Part shown: positions 11,201 through 29,200 of the stretch, piece after piece
Layout: the number at the start of each line of letters is the position of its first letter
Position numbering within the stretch: the first letter of the stretch is position 1
NCBI GenBank assembly: GCA_963930775.1
Contig: OZ005703.1
Location: 2,852,001 to 2,916,000, forward strand
Direction: 5' to 3'
DNA length: 64,000 nucleotides
DNA from: Cliona cf. orientalis
Taxonomy: Eukaryota; Porifera; Demospongiae; Clionaida; Clionaidae
Notes under the pieces: generated by a model
Seen by the model: the letters and a program-made list of their open reading frames with translations, nothing else
Told to the model about the DNA's origin: nothing
The model's database searches: none
Made by a program: the position numbers and the translations under genes

Positions 11201-14200
11201 ACCTCTCCCTCATGTATGTCCAAGAATTGTGGAGCTCCTTTGCTGAGGAATTCAACATTCCATCACTGACGGCTATCGTTGAGCACATTGCTCCTGGTAG
11301 TCTGGAGATAATATGGCGTGTCCCACCTCATGAGGCAGAGCTAATAAGACCTAGTGCTAGGTTCTCAAGGCAACACAAGATCACTCTCATTACCATAGAT
11401 GACCACATCATCTATAATGAGAAACAAATGGTGAGTATCACATCGCAATCATAATTATTGAATCTAGCAACACTATAGTTATTTAATTCAGGTGGAGTAT
11501 GAAAGGAGATTTCTGGTGCTGTGTAAAGAGCGTACTACCAGCATTGACAGCGTCACTGGTCTGCTCCAACTGGGAGTGGATCCCAACATTCACGACAAGG
11601 TGTGCTATAGTCCTGCGTGATAATAGTATTATAGCTAATGGGTAAGAAAATTTTCCATACATGTAAGTACTACATGTAGATGAACCAAACTCATTAGTAT
11701 GGGCACTCCATTCAAATACCATGTTAATTTCTTTTAAAAAATCTACTTGCTAATTATTCACAAGACTACATAGAACCATCTAAAAGCATTAGCTAATAGA
11801 AGTTACTCTGAATTGGTACTGTTCTCTGTAGGATGGTGATCATCCATTGTGGTATGCAAGTGCTGACGGCAGAGAAGACTTAGTGCCGTTGTTTATGGAC
11901 CATGGTGCTGCTGTTGACCTGCAAACTAACGTAAGAGAAATAGATTGTTATAATAATTATTGTCCCATATGAACGAAATACAAGTCCCCATTGCCAGACA
12001 TGCACATGTACATATCATAATAATGTGAACGTCTATCACTTCTTTCACCCCATGCACGTGCAATCATGCATGCAGGATGAAATTGGTGAAACAGCCCTAC
12101 ACACCGCCAGCAGATACGGTCATGTCAATGTCATCACTGCTTTAGTGGAAAAGGGAGCAAATGTCAACTGCCTAACCAAGGTGGGTGGAGTCCACAGTAG
12201 TATAGTGGAAGATGAAATGCTCAGTTTATAGCTAGATGAGGCTTACACTGTATGTGGATGATGGAGTACAAGGTGGACGGAGCTTCCACGGGTAATGTAT
12301 TATTATGTGGGCAGTCCATGCAGTGAGGGTGGGTGGAGCATAGCATTGTTGTGGACACACTTATAGACACAACACCAATTGCTTTAGCTACACGGCATTT
12401 GAATTACTATAGGTACACAGTCACTGATGGAGTTGACAACATGACTATAATACACTTTGTTCATGTGGTGGATGATTATCCTTGATGTGTGTCTCTGATA
12501 CAGACTGGAGTGACCCCACTCAAATATGCCAGTGATGAGGGATCTGTTAAGGCAGTGCATCTGTTGCTGGACAGGGGAGCTGATATTAACCAGGTACTGT
12601 ACTACAGAGTTCCTGCATGCTCATCTGACATCCAGACATAGTGAGAGAGCGTCATACACATATATAATCTTTGGAAATAGTGTCATGGATAATATAGGGT
12701 ATAGGTGCATAGAGTTGAGAGAGCACAAGTTTTGAGAGTGGTTATCTGTTTGCATTTGTAATATCAGCATTGGTAACTCCCACTCAATATCTGCACCATA
12801 ATTTATTGTTAGTTGTGAAGCACTACTGTAACGATTGTCTTGTTCATGTGGTATAGAGATACATCCATATATATGGTCTTCTAATAAATGACCAACACAA
12901 CCTCATGTAAGTATTATTATGTTCACTGTGTAATTATTCTCCAGGGAGAGTCGACGCCCCTGTGGGGAGCCAGCCGAGAAGGGAGGTTGGATACTGTTGA
13001 GGCTCTTCTTGATCGAGGTGCAGAGGTCAACCAGAGATCTGATGTGAGAACCGTAATAATATTATCATGTTGCTGCTAAGTAGCCGTGTACATGTGCTGG
13101 GGATAGACAGAGCCTATTGACCTGAGTGGTACTGAAATCACATTAAAATGTCTAACATAAATGGTAGAGAGTATTTTCCTCAAAGACAAGTGTAGTTCTT
13201 GATCTGTCTCTCTCCATTAACCTTTTCATCCCTATATACAGATACATGTATACTGGCTAACTGCTAACTTTGCATGTGTTTTATTACATGTATATGTGTA
13301 TTATATATAGTTTGTTGCAAAGAAACCTCTGATAAAGTAAATAATCATCAGATATAAAATTATGGTAGAGAGCATCGGGTTAGGTACCATATAGCGGGAA
13401 ATTTTCGAGGGAGAAAACTTTCTCGGATCGGTAGGAAAGGGGCATTTCGCGGAGAAAACTTTCGCGGAATGTTAAAACTTGTCGCATAATGGGTGTGACA
13501 TGCCTAGAATTTCCTGGAGAAAAATTTGGCGGCTGGCGGAAAAATCGCGAAATTCGTGAAATTTTTCTCCCTCGAAAATTTCCTGATATACGGTATCATA
13601 CCAAGAGGTCACTGTTGTCAGAAGGTTGGAAATGACGATTTTAGATTCTAAGCACTTAATTAAAGGTGTTTTATCATGATAGATTATTACAAAGTCTATT
13701 TTGCATGTGACATAATAGCACCAAAAATGAAATCGTGTATAGGGTTTCGATCAATGTGTGTAGAATGTGATCATAAAATTAGTGATATCCAATAAAGGAA
13801 GTATACGAATTGGAATTGGAACCTTCTAGCCGGTGTTGAAAGGTACAAGATCTATCTGGGGTTGAGCACTGAGACAAAGAAATATGCGGTGGTACGTAGC
13901 TATACTGTAACAGTGGATATCATCTAGCTAGATTTGCTGTGTACAAATTAGTACTTATCTGAGGCTCACAGCTAGAACAGCAGTGCCAAACAAGATTAGC
14001 TCAAGCAGCAGACAGAAATACTGGTCTAGCGGACTATTGATTTGTCCCTGCAGGGATCCTAGTACACTGTAAAAACAAGTGTGTTACCGTAACACGCATG
14101 TACCGTGTAGCATGTGTGCTAAATGGTGCGACGTGTGTTAAATTAGCATACTAGCACCTACACGTGTGCTACTATTGCACGCAAAACACTATTTAACATG

Positions 14201-17200
14201 CGTGCAGATGTGCCACTGTGTTATAATAACCCACTAAACATGTACCAGTGTGTTATAATAACCCACTAAGTATGTACCCGTGTGTTACAATAACCCACTA
14301 AGCATGTACCAGTGTGTTACTAGTAGTACCCATTCAGTGTGTCAAACTTACCCACTAAGCAATAGTCTTGCTGTGAATGACCTGGGGACAAGACTATAGC
14401 GAAGCAAACTAATTTTAATCCACCTCAGCAACAGTTAATGTCTAATTGAGTCAAGTTCAACTCATAATTCAAGTGTTCACTGGGCCCAATCAGCTTATAA
14501 GACTGTGTGGAGGCTCAGTATAATGATTCAAGTATAGTATTCCTTCACGGTATAGCCTGATTTCCAATCTTCCGACACTCTAGCTACTAAACTTGAGGAA
14601 TTTTAATACTAGTAGCAGTAGTCATGCTAAATATACTTCAGCAGAAGGGACAAAGGCTTGAACAGCAGACTGGGATGAAGCTCATAGCATCCAGCACCGC
14701 GGTACCGACGAGCGCACTCGATTCTAATTAAAGCGCACCGTTTTCTAATGAGCATGCTCAGTAGAGAGTCAAATGGGCTATTCCAGTTAATAAGGATACA
14801 CCCCTGTGGAGGAAGTTAATTACGTATGATAGGCTTAGACCTGAAAAATCAATCTTAGTTCTGTAGGGTGAAACACGGTCGACCCTTTACCAATTATATT
14901 ATGTATTGATGGTTCAAACATGAAATTGAATTAAGTTTTGATGGTTGGAGCACTTTGAGTTTATACAGTTTGGGGTGAAACAGTTACTACAATAATTATA
15001 TGCATATGACATTGGTAAGATTGATGGATTAGGGGATTTAGCCCATATATAGGGGCATAATTTGAAATTTAACAGTTACCACAAAATTTAAATTATTTTT
15101 TGTAATAAAGTGGTACAAAACTGGGACAGTCTGGGTATCAGGCTACTCTATGTCCATTTGCATATGTATACCCCATTAAACACTCGCATATATTTTAGCA
15201 TTATTATTGAACTAGAAGGGGTGAAAATACATCTCATCGAGAGTGCAAAACCAAAGGCTGAGTAGATACAACAATCATAATAGGAGTGGTTAATGTCAAT
15301 TGGTTTTCTATTTGATCACATCCATGTTCATAAAGCAGCATGGCTACAATAATTATTATTATATTATAGCTAGTGGATAAATAACACGATCACTGGAAAT
15401 TGAAATGTGTGATAATGATGAGGGGTGACAATAAGTATAAGATAACAATGGAAAATCAGTATATGCACATTAATAAAGATGATATAATTTAAAATATAAA
15501 TATACTGCAATTCGTCCCTGTGAACACCAGTACAGTACTTGAACTCCCATTTGCATTAATCATCACTTTCCGTGTCTTCATAAGTCTCGTTATTGAATGT
15601 GTGCACCAGCATTTCCATTTCATCATCTGAAAGTTCAGTTGGAGTATATATCAGCTATCAGAATTTCAGCTTCCTGGTTGGCTACACCCGTTTCCGTATT
15701 CAGCTGCCGCCTCTTGTCAATTATTGCTTTTTTCAGGGCATTCTGTGCGCTCTTGAGATGGGACATTTTTTGATGAAGTTCACTTTCAAACAATTGCTTT
15801 TCAGACGGGTCGTTGGTACTTGTCGCTTCGAAAACATGTTGGTGGGTTGATGCTTGGGCTTCCTGCATTCTCTCCACATTTTTTTGGATGGATGACAGAA
15901 ACAGGGCTCTCAATACACTATCAGTGATGCAAGCCTTTGCATCTTCAATCACTTCTTCTGCTTGTAGCTGAAGGAGGTGTGAGCACTGTAATCTCCATGA
16001 TGCGTATATGGCCCCCTCAATGGCATTCTTGTTGTGAAGCTTGTCACGTGAATTTTTGTCTTTGCAGATTTCCACAGCTTTTTCGTTCCAAAACTTTCTG
16101 AAGTCCTGCTTGAGACCAATAGCTTTTTCAATTTCATCCTCTGAGTATATGTGAATCCCATATTGTTGGGGACTGAAGTCAAAAGCAGCTTTAGAAGAAG
16201 TAGAAGTAGGATTTTGCCTGCAATACTTGAAAAGAGTTGTTTGAACCGTGCATGGCTTCTTTGGTTCACTGACAGCTGACTGTGGATCTCTTGCTCTTTT
16301 TGACATACTTGAAAAACTCAGTCTGGTGGGGAAGAAAGCTCAGCTGCTTGCTATATCTTGTGACTGTGGAGCTAGCTCAAGCACATGGCATGCAGGTGAA
16401 AGTGCAGACTGATGAATCAATTCAGATGCAATTAACACCAGCCAGGTCATGAAAATTAATTGTAAAAGGGGAGGTGGCTTGTGGTGGTTTTTATTTGGAA
16501 TCTTGCTGTTACAAGTTCAGAAGCAGCCAGGTTTCCAAAGGTGTGAAGAAAGCAAGAAAAGCTGTGCATAGAAGCATGGAGATTGTATCTATTGCAGATG
16601 GTAAGTATAGCTATGTTTTGTGCATGGTATTAAGGTATATTTAGGCACCCTTAATTATTGCAACAGGTTTGCATCCAGTTGCTGCAACTTAATTCCAACC
16701 TGCAATAATATTATTTTAGCTCAACTGTAATCAAATTATTTGGCATACACCAAAACCAAACATAATACTATTATAAAATACTGGAAGCTAACAGCATAAA
16801 TTGTTTGCAGATTTTGGTAGGAAAAGATTTTTCAGTGGATGGCTAACTAAATTGCGATCGGCTGCTTCTGTTGGATATGATGCACTAACTGACTCATGTA
16901 GAGAGTTGCAGTCACTTCTGAACTCCTGTTCGTACTCTCCCATATCTCTCCTAACAGACATTTTTGTGCTCAAGACTCTACCAGTAGACACACATTCGAA
17001 AAGGGTTCTTCCCTCAACTTGTAGACACCTAGTGCCCATCAAGACAGAAGCAGATGGAAACTGCCTCTATAGGTATGCAAATATGTCTACTACAAGCTAG
17101 AGATAGCCCTCCAATAATGTGTTGATAATGTGATGCACAAGAGTTTCAATTTGCACCTGTTGACATGCAGGGTGTTAAATTAGCCTATTGAGTTGGTCAC

Positions 17201-20200
17201 CACCAGTGGCTACTAACTTGATATTATGGTTGTTCCTGACTATTTTAGTCACCACTTCAATCATCATATTGTGTATTTCAAATTGAAAAATAGCTGCATA
17301 GTATTTCTTGTGTATGCTATGGATCACAGGGAGGGGAAAGGCATAACCAAAATGCTAGAGCCATTCAAGTTATTTGCCCTATAGCTAGCTAGCGGTCATG
17401 TAAAAATCTGGTAGATACATGGTGTCTTGGCTACTGATGGGGGATTAGTCAAGCTCTCAGACTAGCTAAAGCTGAGCTCCAAATTAATTTTTTGAGCTAC
17501 AATGTACAAGTATTATAATTATTATAGCTAGAGCAATGATTCTAGATCAAAATATTTAATGGCCAACATTAATTGTACCTCTGCACTACCACTAAGCACT
17601 ACCACTAGTCCAACAGCTGTGCCAGCCAGATGATGGTGGTTTGCTGCTATGTAAACTAGAGTTTCAAATGACCACTATATAGGAAGAGTAACTGTGACAA
17701 CATGGAGAGCAAGAGCTACACTGGGAAATGATAGCGTCATCCAATGTGAACATACCTATGCAGAATCCGGGTTTTGTTGACACACACGTGGTTGTGTGGT
17801 TGCACATGTGCGCTTTGAGCTGCACCACCAAACGTCTATAATGCACTATTATTCATAGTCTTATGGCCACACAGTTTTCATAAACTCATGTACTAGTACA
17901 GCATTTGTCTGGTATCTACTAGGCTATGCACCATCACAGGAGTTATATGGGTAGTGGGCCTGTCAGTGGCTTAAAGTACCAGGGGCTACCCCTGAAACTT
18001 CTCTATGTACCTAGTATGTAGTATGTGCATCTATATACCCTCAACACTTGGACCACCAAGTGTGTACATTAACCTATGTGATATGTTATAGTATATTATA
18101 GTACATGTAAATATAGCCTCAAATCTGTGTATTTTCTCTGATGGCTATAGTCTCAAGTGTAGGTGAGAAATTTGAAAAGGTTTATATTTAGAGTGCCATG
18201 CCCAACAAAATATGATTCAATGTGATGCTCAGAATGCACCAGAATCTCTCTAGGGAGATATTCAAAAAAATTTCTGGGGAGTTTGCCCAAGCCTCAGACC
18301 CTTCTAGACTGCTACTCGATTACCAATTCCTAGCCACCCCCCAACTCCAAAACGTCTTCTTCCAAGACTTTGACATAAAATTACGATAATGGTTTATTTT
18401 TGCACTGCAGTATTAATTTAAAGTTAGCTAGTCAATGCACCCCTCACTTTATATTGCTTCGTATCCCTTTGATACTCACGTATACTTGAAGGGTAGTTGG
18501 ACAAAAATAATTATTATGCTCGGCATTATAATACCTTTGCTATCTGTAGGCTCAGTCAGCATATTTGTGTTTGGCTAATCTAACATCATACATACACTTG
18601 TAGGAGTTTATTACAATGATATGGAACTTGCATCCCAAATATATGCATGTATATACATATTATAATACCCTATTTCAAATACATATTATACATGTACAAT
18701 GTATTTGGCACCATGCATGGAGGTATAAGTGTACTGAATACCATGTGCATGTGTAACTCCTTTCCCTCCCGTGTGGAGACCCTAGCTATTTTAACCTTGC
18801 TTAGCTACACTGCAGGACATGGTATAGGCTCCCTCTGTATTGAAACATGGTAATCATGTAGCTGTGTAAACTAGGGTATGTACTTAGCCTTTGAGCTAGA
18901 TAAACCACAGGGTCATCTGTGTGGTTAACAGATTGTCAACACTTGATGACTGATAGTGACTGCATGGTCAGTCAGCTAGTATAGTTATAATATAACAGGC
19001 ATCTGTCTTGTATTAGCCCAAGACAGTGGCTGCCATATAACTGACTTGTTAGATGTTGACATAGGAATTTAATTAGTACCTATTCTTTTACATTGAGCAT
19101 GTTGCCCACAGTGTCATTGATTTTCCTCTGTATTGGAGAATATTCTGTCACTAGTTACCTAGGTAACATCTAACAAATATAGCTGCATTCATAACCATTG
19201 TGATAGCCTTTATTATAATAACTTTCGTTAACTCCAACACATGAAATGATCATTTTATTTATTTCAGAGCAATCTCAATTTTGTGCTGTGGCAAAGAGAG
19301 CTTGCACATAGAGTTGCGTGTGAGAACAGTTTGCGAGCTGGTACTAAATGAAGAGTACTATTTGCAGCCATGTATTACTTCACTGCTTGATGCTGGCTCA
19401 GTAGGAAAGAATGCCTTGATTGCTACAACAGCTAGCTTTGAAGCAGCTGCTGCAATGCCGGATACTGACATAGCAAGAACAACTTTACGCCTTGACTGCA
19501 TTGCAACAACAAAGCTGGGTGAGTGGTCCAATATCTTTCATCTATATGGATTAGCTTCTGTACTGAAGAAATCCATAATCTCAGTATACCCAGATGTAAA
19601 CACAAGAATTAGAGAACGATTTAATCGAGAAATCTTACCAAGAATTACTGACCTGGTACAACACTCAATTCCACTTATTATTTTATGGACGAATTTATCA
19701 TATATACCTAACAAAAGTAAACCATGTGCTTGGTCACCAAATCATTTTGTACCTTGCTTTTCAAGCTCAAAATCTATCTCAACTGAAGGACAGTCACTCC
19801 AAGCAAAGACATCTTTCACTAGCTCCCCTTCACCACTCCTGATCATAACAGAAGGACAGTCTACCACCCCTCTCTCACTCCTGGACCAAGGGAAGACATC
19901 CTTCACTAGCTCCCCCTCACCACTCCTGATCGTAACAGAAGGACAGTCTACCACCCCTCTCTCACTCCAAGGGAAGACATCCTTCACTAGCTCCCCCTCA
20001 CCACTCCTGATCGCAACAGAAGGACAGTCTGCCACCCCTCTCTCACTCCAAGGGAAGACATCCTTCACTAGCTCCCCCTCACCACTCCTGATCGCAACAG
20101 AAGGACAGTCTACCACCCCTCTCTCACTCCTGGACCAAGGGAAGACATCCTTCACTAGCTCCCCCTCACCACTTGTGATCACAACAGAAGGACAGTCTAC

Positions 20201-23200
20201 CACCCCTCTCTCACTCCTGGACCAAGGGAAGACATCCTTCACTAGCTCCCCCTCACCACTCCTGATCGTAACAGAAGGACAGTCTACCACCCCTCTCTCA
20301 CTCCAAGGGAAGACATCCTTCACTAGCTCCCCCTCACCACTTGTGACAGGAACAGAAGGACAGTCTACCACCCCTCTCTCACTCCAAGGGAAGACATCCT
20401 TCACTAACTCCCCCTCACCACTCCTGATCGCAACAGGGCAGTCTACCACCCCTCACTCACTCCTGGACCTAGGGAAGACATCCTTCACTAGCTCCCCCTC
20501 ACCACTCGTGATCACAACAGAAGGACAGTCTACCACCCCTCTCTCACTCCTGGACCAAGGGAAGACATCCTTCACTAGCTCCCCCTCACCACTCCTGATC
20601 GCAACAGAAGGACAGTCTACCACCCCTCACTCACTCCTGGACCAAGGGAAGACATCCTTCACTAGCTCCCCCTCACCACTCCTGATCGCAACAGAAGGAC
20701 AGTCTACCACCCCTCTCTCACTCCAAGGGAAGACATCCTTCACTAGCTCCCCCTCACCACTTGTGATCACAACAGAAGGACAGTCTGCCACCCCTCTCTC
20801 ACTCCAAGGGAAGACGTCCTTCACTAGCTCCCCCTCACCACTCCTGATAGCAACAGAAGGACAGTCTGCCACCCCTCTCTCACTCCAAGGGAATACGTCC
20901 TTCACTAGCTCCCCCTCACCACTCGTGACAGTAACAGAAGGACAGTCTGCCACCCCTCTCTTAATCCAAGGGAAGACATCCTTTACTAATTTTCCATCAT
21001 ATTTCATTTCTGAAACACTATGTGCAAATGCTACCTCACTACTCAATAATAATGTCAAAGAACAATCATCACAGTGTCCATCACCTAGCTCCTTTGATGG
21101 TGATCAGATGTTGCACGTACCTTATGTACCCACTACTGCATTGCTTAGTATCTTTTCAAGTGGCAAGGTACAACCACATGCAGCAAAAAGGACGTCTTCT
21201 TTAAAATCTAAGCTCAAATCGAAGAAATTAACGTCATTTTTTTCTAAAAAGGACCCTACCAAATGTCATGAAGCCATAAAGCCAATTTGCAATCAATCTG
21301 CGATCACAGATCAACCTGAATCTCTCAAAGGATCTGATTCCTGCATATCTGCATCTGCTATATTTAATATTCTTACAAATTCTAGTGGTAAGCAGCCAAA
21401 GCAAGTATCGAAAAAACTGGAAAGTGAATCTTCATCACTATATTATGCTGAAATGAAGTTGTCGAGCTCCATGAGTGTTCCCTCGCCTCTTATAAGTACA
21501 GCCGAAGAACAATCTATTGCAGCATCTGCAGCTAAAAGATCAAAATCATCAGTGACAACAACTCCTAATACATTGACCCCTTGTCAAACCTTATCCAATG
21601 TGTCCATATCTACCCTATTCAGTTTATTTGCAAACAGATCCGTCCATAAAGACATCAAAACTCAATCAGGTACTTTAAATTTACTTGAAAGGTACTATCA
21701 GCCATTAAAGTCAAGCACATCTCGATCATTTGACATTGATATGCAAGAAAAAGTTGATGAAGACATTAGTTTAGAAACACAGGAAGACATGCCTGCTATT
21801 TCACCGAGAAAGGACACAACTATTGGAACTCCTTTTGTGTCAACCACGAGAGCACAAAGTGTTTCAAGTGATTCAAGTGATGGTGTTGAAGTTAGTGACC
21901 TTACATACTTTCATGAATGCGGCTATTCTCCAGATCCCGTACCAGATGAAACCTCGAATGTTAATCAGGATAGTTTCAGCAGTGAGTCTGGAGATGAAAA
22001 AGCAGACTGTATTAAAGTATACTCACATCCAGGATATTCACACCCCTATCCATTTCCCAGTGTATCCAGTGAATGGTATGAGAAACAGCGTGCCTTAGAA
22101 TTACACAATGCTGCTAGAGAAGAACGAAGAAGTACGAGCACAACTGCATTTGATGAAGAGGGAAATATTAGTTTCGTGGATCGCAGTCAAACCAAGGGAA
22201 CATTACTCCAAAATATCCTATCCTTAAAGAATCAAGTTGCTAAACTCCAGGAGGGTAGCACAAAGCAGCACATTAGCGCACTCATAAAGGCAGGAGAGTT
22301 CATAGTTGCAAATGGTCCAGTAGTCAAAACTCAGGAAGTTGGAAGGGTATATTTGAACGTAAAAGGATCGACTACAAGAAAGCGCTCTTTAGAGATTTAT
22401 GAAATATTCTCTAAGCACCTAAACCTTGCTCAGATTTACATGTATGGAGTTGCCTATGTTGTACAAAACACCACCGGTCTTGCTATGATCACTACTTCTC
22501 TTAAGTCTGCTGTTGACAATGAGTATGTGGTCAAAGAAAGGGTTCAGGATTGTCTAAAAGAAGTATTTCCATCAGCCCTGAAGTACTTGGATAGCCATCG
22601 AGATAGGCAGGTTTTGAAAGCTCTATTTGCAGAACTGACAAATATCTCCTTTACTGCAAGACTACAGGGTGTTAAGAGTCGAAAAGGTACAAGGAATGCA
22701 ACAAAGTCAGTTCAGTCCCAGTTGTTACATTATGACTTCATTAGAGCTACATCACAGATTGTCCGGAATGACATAACCACCATCAAACAATACCAACTCA
22801 CAGAAAGAATTATATCAGCCAGAAAATTCAAGGAAATAAGAACCATCAGTCAAGGAAGAGGTAGAAAGCTGAAGGCAACAGAATTTCCTGATCTTGCAGT
22901 AGTGCTTTCATATGCTTTTGGAGAGCTAGATGGTGGTCTTGAAGCTCACCCTCGGCTGACTACTGGAACTGTTTACCGAGCTAGTGATAACACCATGACT
23001 ATGCGGAGAGCAAGGGAAGTTTTACTATCTACAGCTCCTGAGGGGTTTACTATTTCTCTCAGCTCATGCTTCAACTACACTCAGAATTTTAGGAAAGGAA
23101 GCATTCAATCAAAGCAGCATCATGCTGGTAAGAATGTTAATGCTGATCTGTCACTAAAGAAGCCTCCACGCACTGGTGTGGAACAGCTGGTGGTGAATTT

Positions 23201-26200
23201 ACATTGGTCGACCGCTAATGTTAACACCATTGTAGATAGTTGCCAGGATATATCCCGTTCTCTTGTAGTGTCTAAAGATGCAAAATCCATTGTACCAACA
23301 GATATTGCACCAGTCCAACATCCTGGACCTTCCTGGAGACGGCGAGAACTCCCAGACCACTCATGGGACCAGTCCAGACTGAATGCTATAACACCCATGA
23401 CGTTTCTTTTTTTACAAACCAGAGTGGAGCAAGGTCCAACATCAACACTTACTACTCTGGACTTAAAAGTGTCAGAAAGTACTATCCTCCACCTGACCAG
23501 AACTGGTCAAACTGTAACACTGCATGCTTAATCTATCGTTTTTTGAGCCTGACACCACTTTTAAGTGCTTGAATGAGATATGTTACCTACTTTCAATGCC
23601 TGAACTGGACACATTCTTTCGGGATTCTGCTACCAATAACTTGAAAAAGGAATTCATTTTTGTGGTGGACAATGGTCCTGCGGAACAGCCCAGTAGCAGT
23701 TTAGTTCAGATGTGCCTAGCACGACTATTGAACTTTTTGAAACTCGAGAAAATTACTCAAGTGTCTTTTGCGGAGTATCACTCCAAAAGGAATTATGTTG
23801 AGAGAGCTCACGCGGAAGAAAATCGCGTCCTGTCAAAGCACGGGCCATTCTGCAGTAAACCTATACACGCAAATGCCACCCCAGGCTCAAGAGAACATCG
23901 ACAGAATATGGAATGTGTAGCTGAAGAAATGAAAACATGTATACAAGAGGGATCATTTGGGGGGAGATCGTTGATGTGTTTTAGAGGTATGCCCCAAGAA
24001 AAGTGGGTGTTTTCTGACGACAAAGAAACGCAGGCATTCTTGGCCATGAATGAGGAGGCTAAATTAACCTACTCTCCTTCTACTTACTCTGTGGTACAAG
24101 GGAGCACCCTGGAAACCATTTGTTTCTATTGGAATCTGGATAGACACTTTGAAGGTCAGTACATAAAAGACTACAAGCACATCAACAATGAGGTATTACT
24201 TGATGGAAAACGATCTTCATGGCTTGACAAATACACAACCTCTCTTTACTCCATCAGTGACGTGCAATGCAAATGATATGAATTGCAACCAGTACCAGAT
24301 TTTTTGAGATGGCTTAAGACCGGAGAATTACATTATCTACCACTGGAAGAGAGGAAATTACTTAAGGAAGGACCTTGGGATGACATTCCAGAGGCCTGTC
24401 TGCCATCAAGAGTGCTAAATCTGTGTTTCTCACTAATTTTAGACCTGCCAAATGAGTTAATCACTCAGCAGATTTCTCTTCTGTCATGGGTGACACCTTA
24501 TGAGGTACGAGAGTACTACAAAAATCAGAGATGTCAGTATGAGCAGCAAATTGAGTCTGAGAGAGAAAAGGATCGTTGGAAGTCACACGATCTTTACAAA
24601 GGGAAAACAAAGCCAGAATTGGAGAAGATGTGTAGAAAATTAAGAATCCCAGTGACATCAACTTTATTGAAGCATCAGTTGGTCAGCCTAATTGCTAAAA
24701 ACAGTGGTGAACTGATGCCTGCTGATAACTATGAGCCCTACTCGGGAAATCTGGAAGAAATTCCCGTATCACTATCAAAAATTAACAACAGCTTGACCAT
24801 TCCTCGTCTGCGATCAATCCTGAAAGTTCACAATCTGCCATTGACAGGAACAAAGGATCAGCTAGTGATGAGGGTATATCTCCTAAGGTGCAATAAAACG
24901 GCAGCAGTGTCAACCAAGGAGGAGCAACAGTTGAAAGACCATATTAGTATGATTTACAGAATGATTCTCGAACAAAGACGTCTCAGTGTGACAGCTCACA
25001 TTTATAGAGTAAGAAAGTATAGTCTGCAAAGGGAGTCTCCACATTTTATATCAAAACCACCACATATTGACTCAGAAGAAGACCTGCAGAACCTCTTTGA
25101 GCCCCTACTGGCACACATATTGACACAAAAAAACATAAGAGAGCAGCATGATCAGTCATCAGCATTCAGGCCTTGTAGATTATCTTCTTGCACACATGAT
25201 GATGAAGTGTTAAAGAACCGTGTCACTCAGACTGGATCAAAAATTAAAGTAAGATGGACCAAGGAAGAGACGCAGTCAATGGGATGGAGAGCAGGATGGT
25301 ATGTGGCCACTGTCCACAACTATTGTATGGAAACTGATATGATCACGTTGACCTATCACAGTGAGCCTAATGATCCGTACGATGAAGAATTGAGCCCATT
25401 AATTGCTGATAGAAGGATAAAACTAGTTTGGTCTCCTATCTGAAACCCGCCAATCACTGCTACCAATATCTACATGTACAAAGTACTCTAACTCTTCTGC
25501 TAACTTAACTTAATCTTCTATCTGTCTACATGATCTCTATTGTTAATCATTATCTCCATAATCATGAATTGATATGTTGTTTAAATTATGGAGTACTAGC
25601 TATTGCTTACTCCAGTCCTAGCTCAGACCCCATATGCACCCTTGACTCGAGAAGGGAAAGTAAAAATTTTGGTCCAGTTGACGACCCACAGAGGAATTCT
25701 AATTGTGTGTTCCAATCAGGTCTCAGATTTATATGACTCTCGCTAATAAAAGCACCATTGCCTGCTCTACAAATTTGAATCACCCACACAACCTTATAAT
25801 GATCAGATCTGAGCTTTGTTTGTGCGCACCTGTGTTAGCATGTGTGCTCAGAGCTGGCCAAACCAGCAAAATGACCCAAAGTTATCAGTCCATTCCCTTC
25901 TTGTGAGGGTAGGGTCTCAGGATGAGCTTAATATTGCACGACATGTTGACTCTAATAAGTATAGATGGTGATTTTTGTTACACTAATTGGGTATTGAAGG
26001 CAAAAAAACTATCAACAACTTGATTAGGAATACTGATACATTAGGTATGGTAGTGGAGGATAATATAATCAGTATTAATGGGTAAAAGATCGACAATAAC
26101 GGGTATTCATGGATCATTAACTCGTTAAATCAATGTACTGAAGGGGTTAAGTTCAATAATGAGGTGTTGAGGGCCACAAAATTGTAAACACTCCTCCACA

Positions 26201-29200
26201 GGGGTGTATCCTTATTAACTGGAACAGCCCAATTTGAATTGAACACGGCAGCTGCAAGTCAAAAAAAGCGGTTGAAGCTGTAAAGACATGGTGCTAGCAG
26301 TGAAAGATGCTGTCTATGTAACTCGGAGGAGAGCGGTATCAGTGCTAAGGCAACTTAGCTATCTAAATTTACGTCCTCTTTCAAGCAACAGTCAACTTAA
26401 AGGTGAGAAAATGGCGTGACACTATAAACGATATTTTTTTGTTACTGAGCCTGATATCTTTTTGCTTATAGAGAGAGTTTCTGTAGTGCAAGTTCATATA
26501 TGAACAAAAAGGTAAGCTATAGCTATATACATGATAAAGCTTAGTATAACTATGACAATTATTACTGTGACTATTTTCATGTGCTCCAGGTAGCTATCAG
26601 AAGTGGGCAAAAGTCGTGGACACCATGCCACTTACCCGAGGTGTGTAGCTATAAGTTGGCTCTGTGTTGTATAATTACTAGGCTATGAGTGCTGGCATGG
26701 CATTGTTATATCCAGAGGTCTCCTTTCTTTTCATTTTATAGGTGTGAACATATATCAGCTAGCTACTATCAGAAGTGGGCAAAAGTCATGTGGACACCAC
26801 TTACCCGAGGTGTGTATAAGTTGGCTCTGTGTTGTATAATTAGCTATGAGTGCTGGCATGGCATTGTTATCCAGTCTTTAATATTAGCTAGCTAATAGGT
26901 CTCCTTTCTTTCCCTTTATAGGTGTGAACATATATTATCATCAGACTCTGACCGAGATGAATGTGCAAGGTCATCAGTATTGGTGATTCTATCAAACTGT
27001 TGGGTGGACCATTGCAGAGTGAGAACAATCAAAATGTCTTTGACGCCATTTGTTTGTTTGTTTTCCGCTGTATATACAGTGTATACACACTTGATTGTTT
27101 TTTGCTCTTGTGTTTATTCATATTATTTCAGTTCTTGTATACAAGTCATCATGTGTAAGAATAACTTACGTGTTAAATTTATCTTTTTATATTGTGTCAA
27201 TTTAACATACAAGGGTATGAATGAATGAATGAATTTTATTTTAAAGTCACGCCTCTAGGCGGCAGACCACAAGTTTGGCCCATGTGACAACAATTTTACA
27301 TAAAATTAATAAAGGTATAATGTGATAATAATATAATAAAGAGAGTGTCATATAATATGAGAGATATATACATAATCCTGCAGGAGCCTCGGGGAATTGT
27401 ACATAGAATAGTTAATAATCAAGGGGGTGGAGGGTGAAAGGAGAGGTGGATAGAGAGGGGAAGGTGGGAAAGGGCTTTCTTCTTCTTTTTTTTTTTTTTT
27501 TTTTGCAACAACAATAAATATATTAATATTAGATTGGCAAATTAGGTGAATTTTGAGGATGATTTTTGTTGTGTACACAAATATGTTCAGGAGAAAGTAG
27601 TAAAAATTTTGCCATAAGGTTCAATAGAGATAATATTATACAGATTTGTCAGATTAGGTGAATGTTTGGGAGTGATTTCCGTTGTATATACACATCAGTA
27701 AAGTACGATCGAGAAATTAGCCATTTGGGAATGTTCAATAGAGATAATATGATTGGGAAAGTTCAATGGAGGTAATATGAGTTGTTTTTCTTTTTTTTTG
27801 GTTGCTGTTTAGAACAATGATATAAGATAAGTGTCAATAATAGATTAGAAGTTTTCAGAAGAGAATAAAATGATTTTGCCATTTGAGGAGTTTTTTTTTA
27901 TTTTTTTTTTAAAGAAATGAAACATGATATAAGACAAGATTTCAGTAAGAGATTAGAAGTTGTCAGAAGAGAATGATTTCAGTTGTATAAATGATTTGCC
28001 ATGTGAGGAGTATATTATTTATTTTATTTATTTATTTATTTTATTATTATTTTTTTTTCCAGATAAGTTATAGGGTTTTGTTTCTCTCTTTTTTTATTTA
28101 TTTATTATTTTTTTTTTTTCCTTATCTTTTATATTTAAGCCCATTGTGTGTGTGTATGGAGAGGAACGAGAGGGGAGGGGAAGAAGGAGAGGAGAGAGTG
28201 GAGGAGATATGAAGAAAAGGTGTCAAATGATATAATTATTCTTTGCGGCCTCACGGTCTGAGTTACCTCAAACGGTTACACCTCTCGCGGTACACGGATG
28301 GCAGACGGCAGTGCCAACTTTGGGGGAGGTTGCACAGGCAAGTAAGATCTGGCAGGTTTTTTCTTTAGCTGAGAGAGATGAAAAATTCGGTACAATATCT
28401 GTAATTGCCTGGGTAAGTTCAGTCCTAGGGGAGCTCAGCTCGTGGCATGACAAGAGGAAGTGGCTTTCGTCCCCCACACCATCCTTGCACAGTTGGCAGG
28501 TTCTTTCCATTAGGGGGGTTTTGGGAGATCTGTACCGACCTGTTTCTACTTCTAGGGGTAGGCATCCTATGAGCATGCGTGCTGGTTTAACATACAAGGG
28601 TATGAGCATGCATGCTGGTTTAACATACAAGGGTATGAGCATGCGTGCTGGTTTAACATACAAGGGGATAGCATGCGTGCTTTATCAACACACTTGAATT
28701 TGACACACGTGTATAGTGTGCTATTTTAGAGGACATTCATTTAACACGCGAACGCGTGTTAAAATAACACGTTTATTTTTACAGTGTATACATAAGATCC
28801 AAAGGAGGCATAAAAATGGTGACGTTTCGGTCCCATCTCATTCCATTTAAATGGAAACGTGTGCCCATTCTGTTTAACAGAAATACAGGAATTGAACGGG
28901 AGGCGAAGCAGTTGACAAATGGTGCAACCAACTACGCGAACCGTAGCTAGCTTGAACTACATGCCAGAGGAGTGCAAGAAAGCCAAAAGGAGTACTACTT
29001 AAGTCGATCTGCTAGTTGTAGAGGCGATTTGAATCAATCAGCGATCTGAGGTCGATCGATCGACGATAACGAAAATCGCTCCAGTTGAGCAGCGATCGCA
29101 AAATAAATTCAAATTAGAAGAGTGACAGCAGTACAGTGTCCCAGCGAAGTTTAGAAGACAGTATCAGTGTAAAAGCATCGATTCTAGGTCCACGAGCAAA

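Follow-up and report, generated by a model that had tools for sequence, protein, structure and literature searches.

Two nested mobile elements in the genome of the sponge Cliona cf. orientalis: a divergent gene pair, with an OTU domain and a DDE-like core, between termini of its own

Results

The stretch from 14065 to 28786 of the window, i.e. of the 64,000 nucleotides of Cliona cf. orientalis that we have analysed (GCA_963930775.1, contig OZ005703.1, positions 2,852,001-2,916,000 of the forward strand; coordinates count from the window start), consists of two nested elements, and not of the single 14.7 kb transposon of the initial annotation. We consider it highly probable that a terminal-inverted-repeat (TIR) DNA transposon, located at 14775-26230, has been inserted in one copy of a CACTG-ended element to which it is unrelated, and that the larger product of its gene pair, which we refer to as "protein 1", is its transposase; the inner element is best read as a cut-and-paste transposon whose lineage is apparently undescribed. 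All genomic copy counts and loci are from the genome of Cliona cf. orientalis alone.

The outer element and its empty site

The CACTG ends annotated at 14065 and 28786 are present, each bordered by TA, and so are the subterminal repeat arrays at both ends (14208-14319, 3.5 copies of 32 bp; 28568-28681, 3.5 copies of 33 bp). They belong to a member of a family of about 1.9 kb, in which no gene of its own was seen in the copies that were read. Equal 2-bp flanks, read by eye, occur in eight of the nine outer copies that have both ends, and the outer element therefore combines CACTG termini with a short target duplication, as CACTA/EnSpm (CMC) elements do; unlike these, no transposase has been seen in it. 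In the window, the outer element is made up of a left part (14065-14774), whose final AAT (14772-14774) is one copy of the target duplication of the inner element, a right inner part (26234-27220) and a right end (28568-28786), which carries the 33-bp repeats; a further insert of 1.35 kb, at 27221-28567, appears by eye to be a fragment of a non-LTR retrotransposon on the minus strand.

In 17 of the 26 other outer copies that we have examined, the sequence of the outer element runs uninterrupted across the point where the genes are inserted, with an exact junction that contains a single AAT where the window has two; the remaining nine copies do not span that point. The initial annotation had named the absence of the genes between recurring ends as the outcome that would speak against its model, and this is what we have found: the CACTG ends recur as a pair, with DNA free of these genes between them wherever an outer copy could be followed; the gene pair is found instead between GGGCTATTCC... 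termini that are flanked by a 3-bp duplication. Since the gene-bearing element has these other ends, the CACTA-like mechanism that had been read from the CACTG termini does not apply to the genes.

Termini and recurrence of the inner element

The inner element is 11,456 bp long and is bounded by inverted repeats of 39 bp, identical at 38 of the 39 positions, which read GGGCTATTCCAG... and are located at 14775-14813 (plus strand) and 26192-26230 (minus strand); the second AAT of its target duplication follows at 26231-26233. The terminus pattern has 369 near-matches genome-wide (177 + 192; control 0 + 0). A 3-bp target duplication flanks 16 of the 20 terminus pairs tested and is missing from the other four, its sequence being AAT/ATT in 14 of the 16, so that the inner element has both the TIRs and the fixed-length target duplication that are general features of DDE/D cut-and-paste transposons.

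The two divergent internal genes that had been annotated are present, and the pair has been found at six places in the genome, divergent at all six; at five of these it is bounded by both termini and by equal 3-bp duplications, while at the sixth a single terminus was found. The copies of protein 1 are 53-67% identical, which, together with the five bounded gene pairs, indicates that the link between genes and termini is old. Both genes are conserved at the amino-acid level well above the neutral expectation (pN < pS in each). Most of the terminus pairs that were seen are not near a gene pair, and one pair, 5.3 kb in length, contains no open reading frame of more than 107 amino acids.

Protein 1 and its OTU and SAP domains

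The gene of protein 1 is located on the plus strand. A possible first exon (16576-16600), proposed by eye from an ATG and a GTAAGT donor, would be joined to the exon of the OTU cysteine motif DGNCLYR (16811-17072; Cys codon 17062-17064), which follows a CAG acceptor; a GT-AG intron (17073-19267), whose position is the same in L063, separates the latter from the main exon (19268-25443), where the rest of the OTU domain, a repeat linker, a helical region, the DDE-like core, a SAP domain and the C-terminus are encoded. The OTU histidine codon is located at 19743-19745, and the linker contains a coding tandem array of 14.3 copies of 81 bp (19794-20988, plus strand).

The OTU-type domain with intact cysteine and histidine, as initially proposed, is borne out by both motifs and by Pfam and PDB matches: the OTU profile PF02338 matches three of the three copies scanned, with the window copy exactly at the cut-off, the DGNC and NHF motifs are found in all three, and the PDB matches to OTU proteins include OTUD1 (E 3e-4). 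Protein 1 has therefore both the profile and the catalytic Cys and His of an OTU cysteine protease. The SAP domain (PF02037, 24787-24876, plus strand) scores 36.9 bits against a cut-off of 23.9 in the window and is above the cut-off in three of three copies; for the Tudor-like C-terminus that had also been suggested, there is no Pfam match. Protein 1 has an OTU domain, a conserved D...D-x43-E core and a SAP domain in one chain, and is probably a transposase to which a ubiquitin-protease-like domain has been fused.

The window copy of the inner element is no longer intact, as its protein 1 gene contains a frame break near 23520-23531 and an in-frame stop at 24274-24276; frame changes occur somewhere in protein 1 in all three long copies that were read, hence none of these is an intact source copy.

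The DDE-like core

The motif VDNGP and the glutamate 44 codons on, both noted initially, are present. We propose as catalytic residues a first aspartate in SKDAK (23277-23279), a second one in VDNGP (23668-23670) and a glutamate in SKRNYVER (23800-23802), the latter 44 codons past the second aspartate, all on the plus strand. Numbered after L063, D379 is kept at 9 of 10 places, D509 at 10 of 10 and E553 at 11 of 12; the core has, as a sequence pattern only, the conserved D...D...E triad that is general to DDE/D transposases. We have not adopted D441 as the first catalytic aspartate, since it is kept at five of nine places, against nine of ten for D379; the strand order of the low-confidence structure model of the core (pLDDT 48.1), which is compatible with an RNase H-like fold, favours D441 instead, and this conflict with conservation remains.

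Profile searches have not assigned the core to a known family. In Pfam, the cores match no transposase or RNase H family, and no DDE family is listed at E values of up to 10, although the filters of HMMER drop most matches above 0.1; the scans contain no CACTA-type transposase profile, no integrase core or zinc-finger family, such as Ginger1 has, and no DDE_4 or other Harbinger-type DDE profile. PF07592 (ISAzo13 type) does not match the cores, and its genome-wide search matched one other place only. The PDB sequence search with the core gave no match, and Foldseek with the low-confidence model gave a best E of 0.13, with none at E 0.001. Weak matches only were obtained from PHROGs, and nothing useful from viral contigs, from bacterial and archaeal genomes or from Rfam at the gathering threshold.

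A second TIR family of the same genome, Family X (about 3.9 kb, with other termini and apparently a 1-bp duplication), shares with protein 1 the core motifs D-x-K, FEP/EPS, DxGP and HSxRNxxER, as well as the step of 44 residues from D to E. The two cores align weakly, with hhalign E values of 3.4e-4 and 6e-4 at probabilities of 38 and 29%, and neither OTU nor SAP matches the two Family X proteins scanned.

The partner gene

Protein 2 is encoded on the minus strand at 15635-16306, in a frame that is open from 16339 and has its first Met codon at 16304-16306; it consists of a basic N-terminus, a degenerate PIP box (QTTLFKYC) and a helical region. The partner with a PIP box that had been annotated stands as a linked gene, found at six of six places, and as the bearer of a canonical PIP box in its relatives, while the window motif itself fails the consensus Qxx[ILM]xx[FY][FY] at the last position. 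The box is canonical in four of the five copies that have their N-terminus (a sixth copy is without it), and in these relatives it is likely, judging by the motif, to bind the replication clamp (PCNA).

Discussion

We think it rather unlikely that a named superfamily, such as Zator, PIF/Harbinger or Ginger, includes the inner element as a diverged member with a transposase that has drifted past profile detection. PIF/Harbinger elements have a 3-bp TTA/TAA duplication, GG-type ends and two genes, with a Myb-like partner; the inner element is like them in the length of the duplication, the type of ends and the two proteins, and unlike them in its AAT/ATT targets, its PIP-box partner and the lack of a DDE_4-type match. 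It also differs from Kolobok, which duplicates TTAA, and from CACTA/EnSpm (CMC), whose CACTA/CACTG termini it does not have.

Zator is described, in the available part of its source (PMC10045372), with a 3-bp target duplication, as in the 16 pairs above. Its transposase is of the ISAzo13 type, PF07592. Membership in Zator has been rejected, as this profile matches neither the cores nor, in the genome-wide search, any of the genes described here. We know of no OTU domain or second gene in Zator.

The nearest precedent for the fusion is Ginger1, a TIR transposon whose transposase joins a DDE core to an OTU protease domain and which, as far as the accessible text goes, makes 4-bp CCGG/CCGT duplications and has TGTNR ends, a Gypsy-integrase-like core with an H2C2 zinc finger and a C-terminal OTU (PMC2836005). 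The inner element likewise has a DDE-like core and an OTU domain (the OTU/Ulp1 feature) in one protein, yet its ends (GGGC), its 3-bp, AT-rich duplication and its core, with no integrase profile match, differ, and its OTU is N-terminal and accompanied by a SAP domain and a partner gene. An OTU-like protease is also encoded by some Helentrons/Helitrons, rolling-circle elements according to the portions available of PMC4067079 and PMC2836005, whose Rep/helicase protein the inner element lacks. By description only, vertnin, a resemblance to which had been pointed out in the initial annotation, shares the OTU-like domain; the human protein is said to be devoid of the catalytic site (PMC10318531), whereas protein 1 has the Cys and His. 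The papers found on vertnin with transposable elements and domestication were, by title, livestock work, and our searches for OTU with vertnin or transposase, DDE or SAP, a new superfamily, PIP box or PCNA, or sponges found no paper.

That the two genes derive from the host, or are carried as passengers, and that the actual transposase for the GGGCTATTCC termini is encoded elsewhere, is improbable: the many terminus pairs away from the genes and the 5.3 kb pair would fit this, but the matching duplications around five of six gene pairs, the age of that link and the conserved D...D...E signature do not. A single CACTG-ended, CACTA-like autonomous element of 14.7 kb, with the short copies as internal deletions, would account for the CACTG ends recurring as a pair, the TA borders and the subterminal repeats, but we have dropped it as virtually without chance, because it is ruled out by the empty sites of the outer copies, because deletions do not predict the inverted repeats at 14775 and 26230, and because the gene pair recurs between GGGCTATTCC termini with separate 3-bp duplications.

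If the inner element is a transposon moved by protein 1, as we prefer, the helical middle and the SAP domain of this protein may bind the termini, and the D...D-x43-E core would cut and join DNA at AT-rich targets, with a stagger of 3 bp. Ubiquitin could be stripped from the transposase, from PCNA or from chromatin by the OTU domain, putatively an active deubiquitinase, while protein 2 would bind PCNA through its putative PIP box and recruit the complex to DNA under replication or repair. Protein 1 may also move the many further elements with these termini, e.g. the 5.3 kb element without long open reading frames.

More tentatively, and less probably than not, the inner element may represent a superfamily of animal DNA transposons that is new and makes 3-bp AAT/ATT duplications. 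It would supply both a deubiquitinase, as part of the transposase, and a PCNA-binding partner, the two acting jointly at replication forks on ubiquitinated PCNA, or on the transposase, in order to time or protect transposition; it would be the autonomous source of the several hundred GGGCTATTCC termini in this genome, and its relatives may have given rise to vertnin-like OTU genes.

The case illustrates how nesting can mimic one giant transposon. The inner element would offer an autonomous source for the 369 near-matches to one terminus in the genome, and a DDE-like core is described that sequence searches of Pfam-A and the PDB did not recognise. Beside Ginger1 and the Helentrons, as these are described in the available parts of their sources, it would be a third mobile lineage with an OTU domain, a hint that such lineages have a requirement in common. 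That a ubiquitin-type protease and a motif for clamp binding are encoded next to each other in a single transposon leads to a testable idea: some eukaryotic transposons may tie their mobility to the replication clamp and to the switching of this clamp by ubiquitin.

The outer element and its insertion

The initial annotation had described positions 14065-28786 of the window (C15:2852001-2916000) as one CACTA-like, CACTG-ended transposon of 14.7 kb holding two divergent genes. The CACTG ends (at 14065 and 28786), the TA borders, the subterminal repeats at both outer ends and the two genes inside are all present; the single-element reading does not hold. At least 37 places in the 217 Mb genome match the left 601 bp of the outer element, and at least 38 match the right 227 bp. 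The loci retrieved include short copies (about 1.9 kb) that, according to Blast, join 14065-14774 directly to 26231-27220, with a 3-bp overlap at this junction, and then continue with 28568-28786. The comparison with the joined window flanks covered 26 of 38 loci (L002-L038 and L064), one per outer element, after removal of 11 duplicate loci and that of the window itself: 17 of the 26 are continuous across the junction, nine of them gap-free around it and eight with one single-base gap, while the remaining nine do not span the junction point. Therefore, 14775-26230, together with both genes, is an insertion in the outer element.

An identical 2-bp duplication (TA, CA, TG or AA) was read in the flanks of eight of the nine outer copies with both ends, window included, the exception being L064; such duplications and the CACTG ends resemble animal CACTA-like elements. 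The outer copies that were read showed no gene belonging to the outer element itself. Window 27221-28567 (1.35 kb), missing by Blast from most outer copies aligned there, is a further insert, possibly a non-LTR fragment. A long reverse-transcriptase-like open reading frame (ORF) at 1877-6123 of L064 is, in our reading, a separate insert, and the comparison of these two inserts found no mutual similarity.

The inner element and its gene pair

The inner element (14775-26230) is flanked by AAT on both sides, and its ends are 39-bp inverted repeats, identical at 38 of 39 positions. Another outer copy (L003/L013) contains a more diverged member of the same terminus family, at another position within the outer element and, as read by eye, likewise flanked by AAT. 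The terminal 30-mer GGGCTATTCCAGTTAATAAGGATACACCCC, with up to three mismatches, has 177 forward and 192 reverse genome matches, and its reversed control has none. Among the matches listed, which are part of these 369, 20 facing pairs were taken with their flanks: 16 have a 3-bp duplication, i.e. AAT in ten (two of which have one common flank, hence are not independent), ATT in four, TAT in one and AAA, within a microsatellite, in one; four have none. A 5.3 kb pair, the full sequence of which was read, shows an AAT duplication and no ORF longer than 107 aa.

The partner protein matches six places in the genome, each adjoining a match of the long protein (protein 1) in divergent orientation. 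Five of these gene pairs are bounded by two inner termini with equal 3-bp duplications: the window pair (11,456 bp), C3:4988264-4998401 (duplication ATT), C1:21189309-21211871, C1:26727605-26741371 and C1:26279257-26288704 (its duplication being a reading by eye); the sixth, at 23.520-23.528 Mb of contig C1, has one terminus, a 2 kb search on the opposite side having found no second one. Other core matches of protein 1 are mostly interrupted fragments.

For both proteins, pN lies well below pS: 0.25 versus 0.83 for the core, between the long copies L062 and L063, and 0.28-0.45 versus 0.72-0.85 for the partner, in ten pairs among five copies. The ratios are rough, because nearly all pairs have saturated synonymous sites. 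None of the three long copies is shown to carry an intact protein 1 gene: in the window, the frame breaks near 23520-23531 and a stop follows at 24274-24276, and the linker ORFs of L062 and L063 lie in frames other than that of their open cores (1133 and 1103 codons). The coding linker contains an 81-bp tandem array (14.3 copies, window 19794-20988); the linker of L062 is repetitive too, but differs from this array.

Domains of the two proteins and known systems

The proposed OTU domain with Cys and His is borne out by the motifs ADGNCLYR and WSPNHF, common to the spliced N-termini of three protein 1 copies, and by Pfam, which lists OTU in all three, in the window copy with a score equal to the cut-off. 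The N-terminus matches mostly OTU deubiquitinases in the PDB, along a short stretch around the Cys, with OTUD1 as the best match (E 3e-4). SAP, also proposed, lies above the Pfam cut-off in all three copies. The proposed PIP box of the partner is canonical in four other copies, near the N-terminus (QSTLFRFF, QLSIKNFF, QTTIFKFF and QTTLTTYF), but the window copy reads QTTLFKYC at this site; the sixth copy is without its N-terminus. Such a motif occurs in less than 1% of whole-protein shuffles, and Pfam gives only weak, mixed matches for the partner.

OTU is described together with a DDE core in Ginger1 (PMC2836005), OTU ORFs are known from Helentrons (PMC2836005, PMC4067079), and PMC10318531 describes human vertnin as an OTU homologue that is inactive. 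The ends, duplication and core of Ginger1 differ from those of the inner element. Zator, like the inner element, has a 3-bp duplication (PMC10045372). The single genome match to PF07592 (ISAzo13/Zator-type), at C1:21248860, is weak (E 9.5e-5), with an internal stop. On contig C117 (338 kb), a vertnin-like OTU ORF lies immediately upstream of an ORF labelled by eye as hAT-like and zinc-finger (L113), and a long ORF in which CxxC motifs recur includes an OTU (L114). Our literature search found no report of the inner element; a Repbase or Dfam entry under another name is possible.

The DDE-like core

The window core, as a read-through, matched no Pfam family, the cores of L062 and L063 gave, besides SAP, scattered sub-cut-off matches with no transposase among them, and the search of PDB sequences gave no match to the core. 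In the best matches per place, the residues of the proposed triad (L063 numbering) are kept at nine of ten places (D379), ten of ten (D509) and 11 of 12 (E553), and two other aspartates at eight of ten (D387) and five of nine (D441), overlapping matches being pooled, which favours agreement. Folded as a single sequence, the window core reached a mean pLDDT of 48.1 and a pTM of 0.43 (pLDDT 34.6 in a 762-residue run). From residue 74, this low-confidence model has the predicted order E-E-E-E-H-H-E-H-E-H-H of strands and helices, which would be compatible with RNase H; in the model, the first strands would hold D441 rather than D379. Foldseek with this model returned nothing at E 0.001, the best matches being unrelated.

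A query peptide, which we take to come from multi-copy cnidarian proteins, found 58 matching stretches in the genome (best 73-74% identity), referred to as family X (e.g. C1:29372497-29376371, C1:37314657-37318532 and C14:4109422-4113327; L115-L120, L125-L148). Two copies have a common 3,883 bp unit with inverted repeats at its ends; the terminus has 150 + 143 genome matches (control, 0), and shorter terminus pairs also occur. One base is common to both flanks in ten of ten pairs and three bases in none (by eye), the target duplication apparently being 1 bp. The ORF of this TIR element (about 3.9 kb) reaches up to 1132 aa, and its protein has no Pfam transposase match. Profile comparison with the present cores gave E values of 3.4e-4 and 6e-4, at probabilities of only 38 and 29%, from alignments that were very shallow; the stretches DxGP and HSxRNxxER are aligned with each other, and both have a D-to-E step of 44 residues. 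Since this core signature is common to two TIR families, the identification of the core as a putative transposase, while short of proof, is supported.
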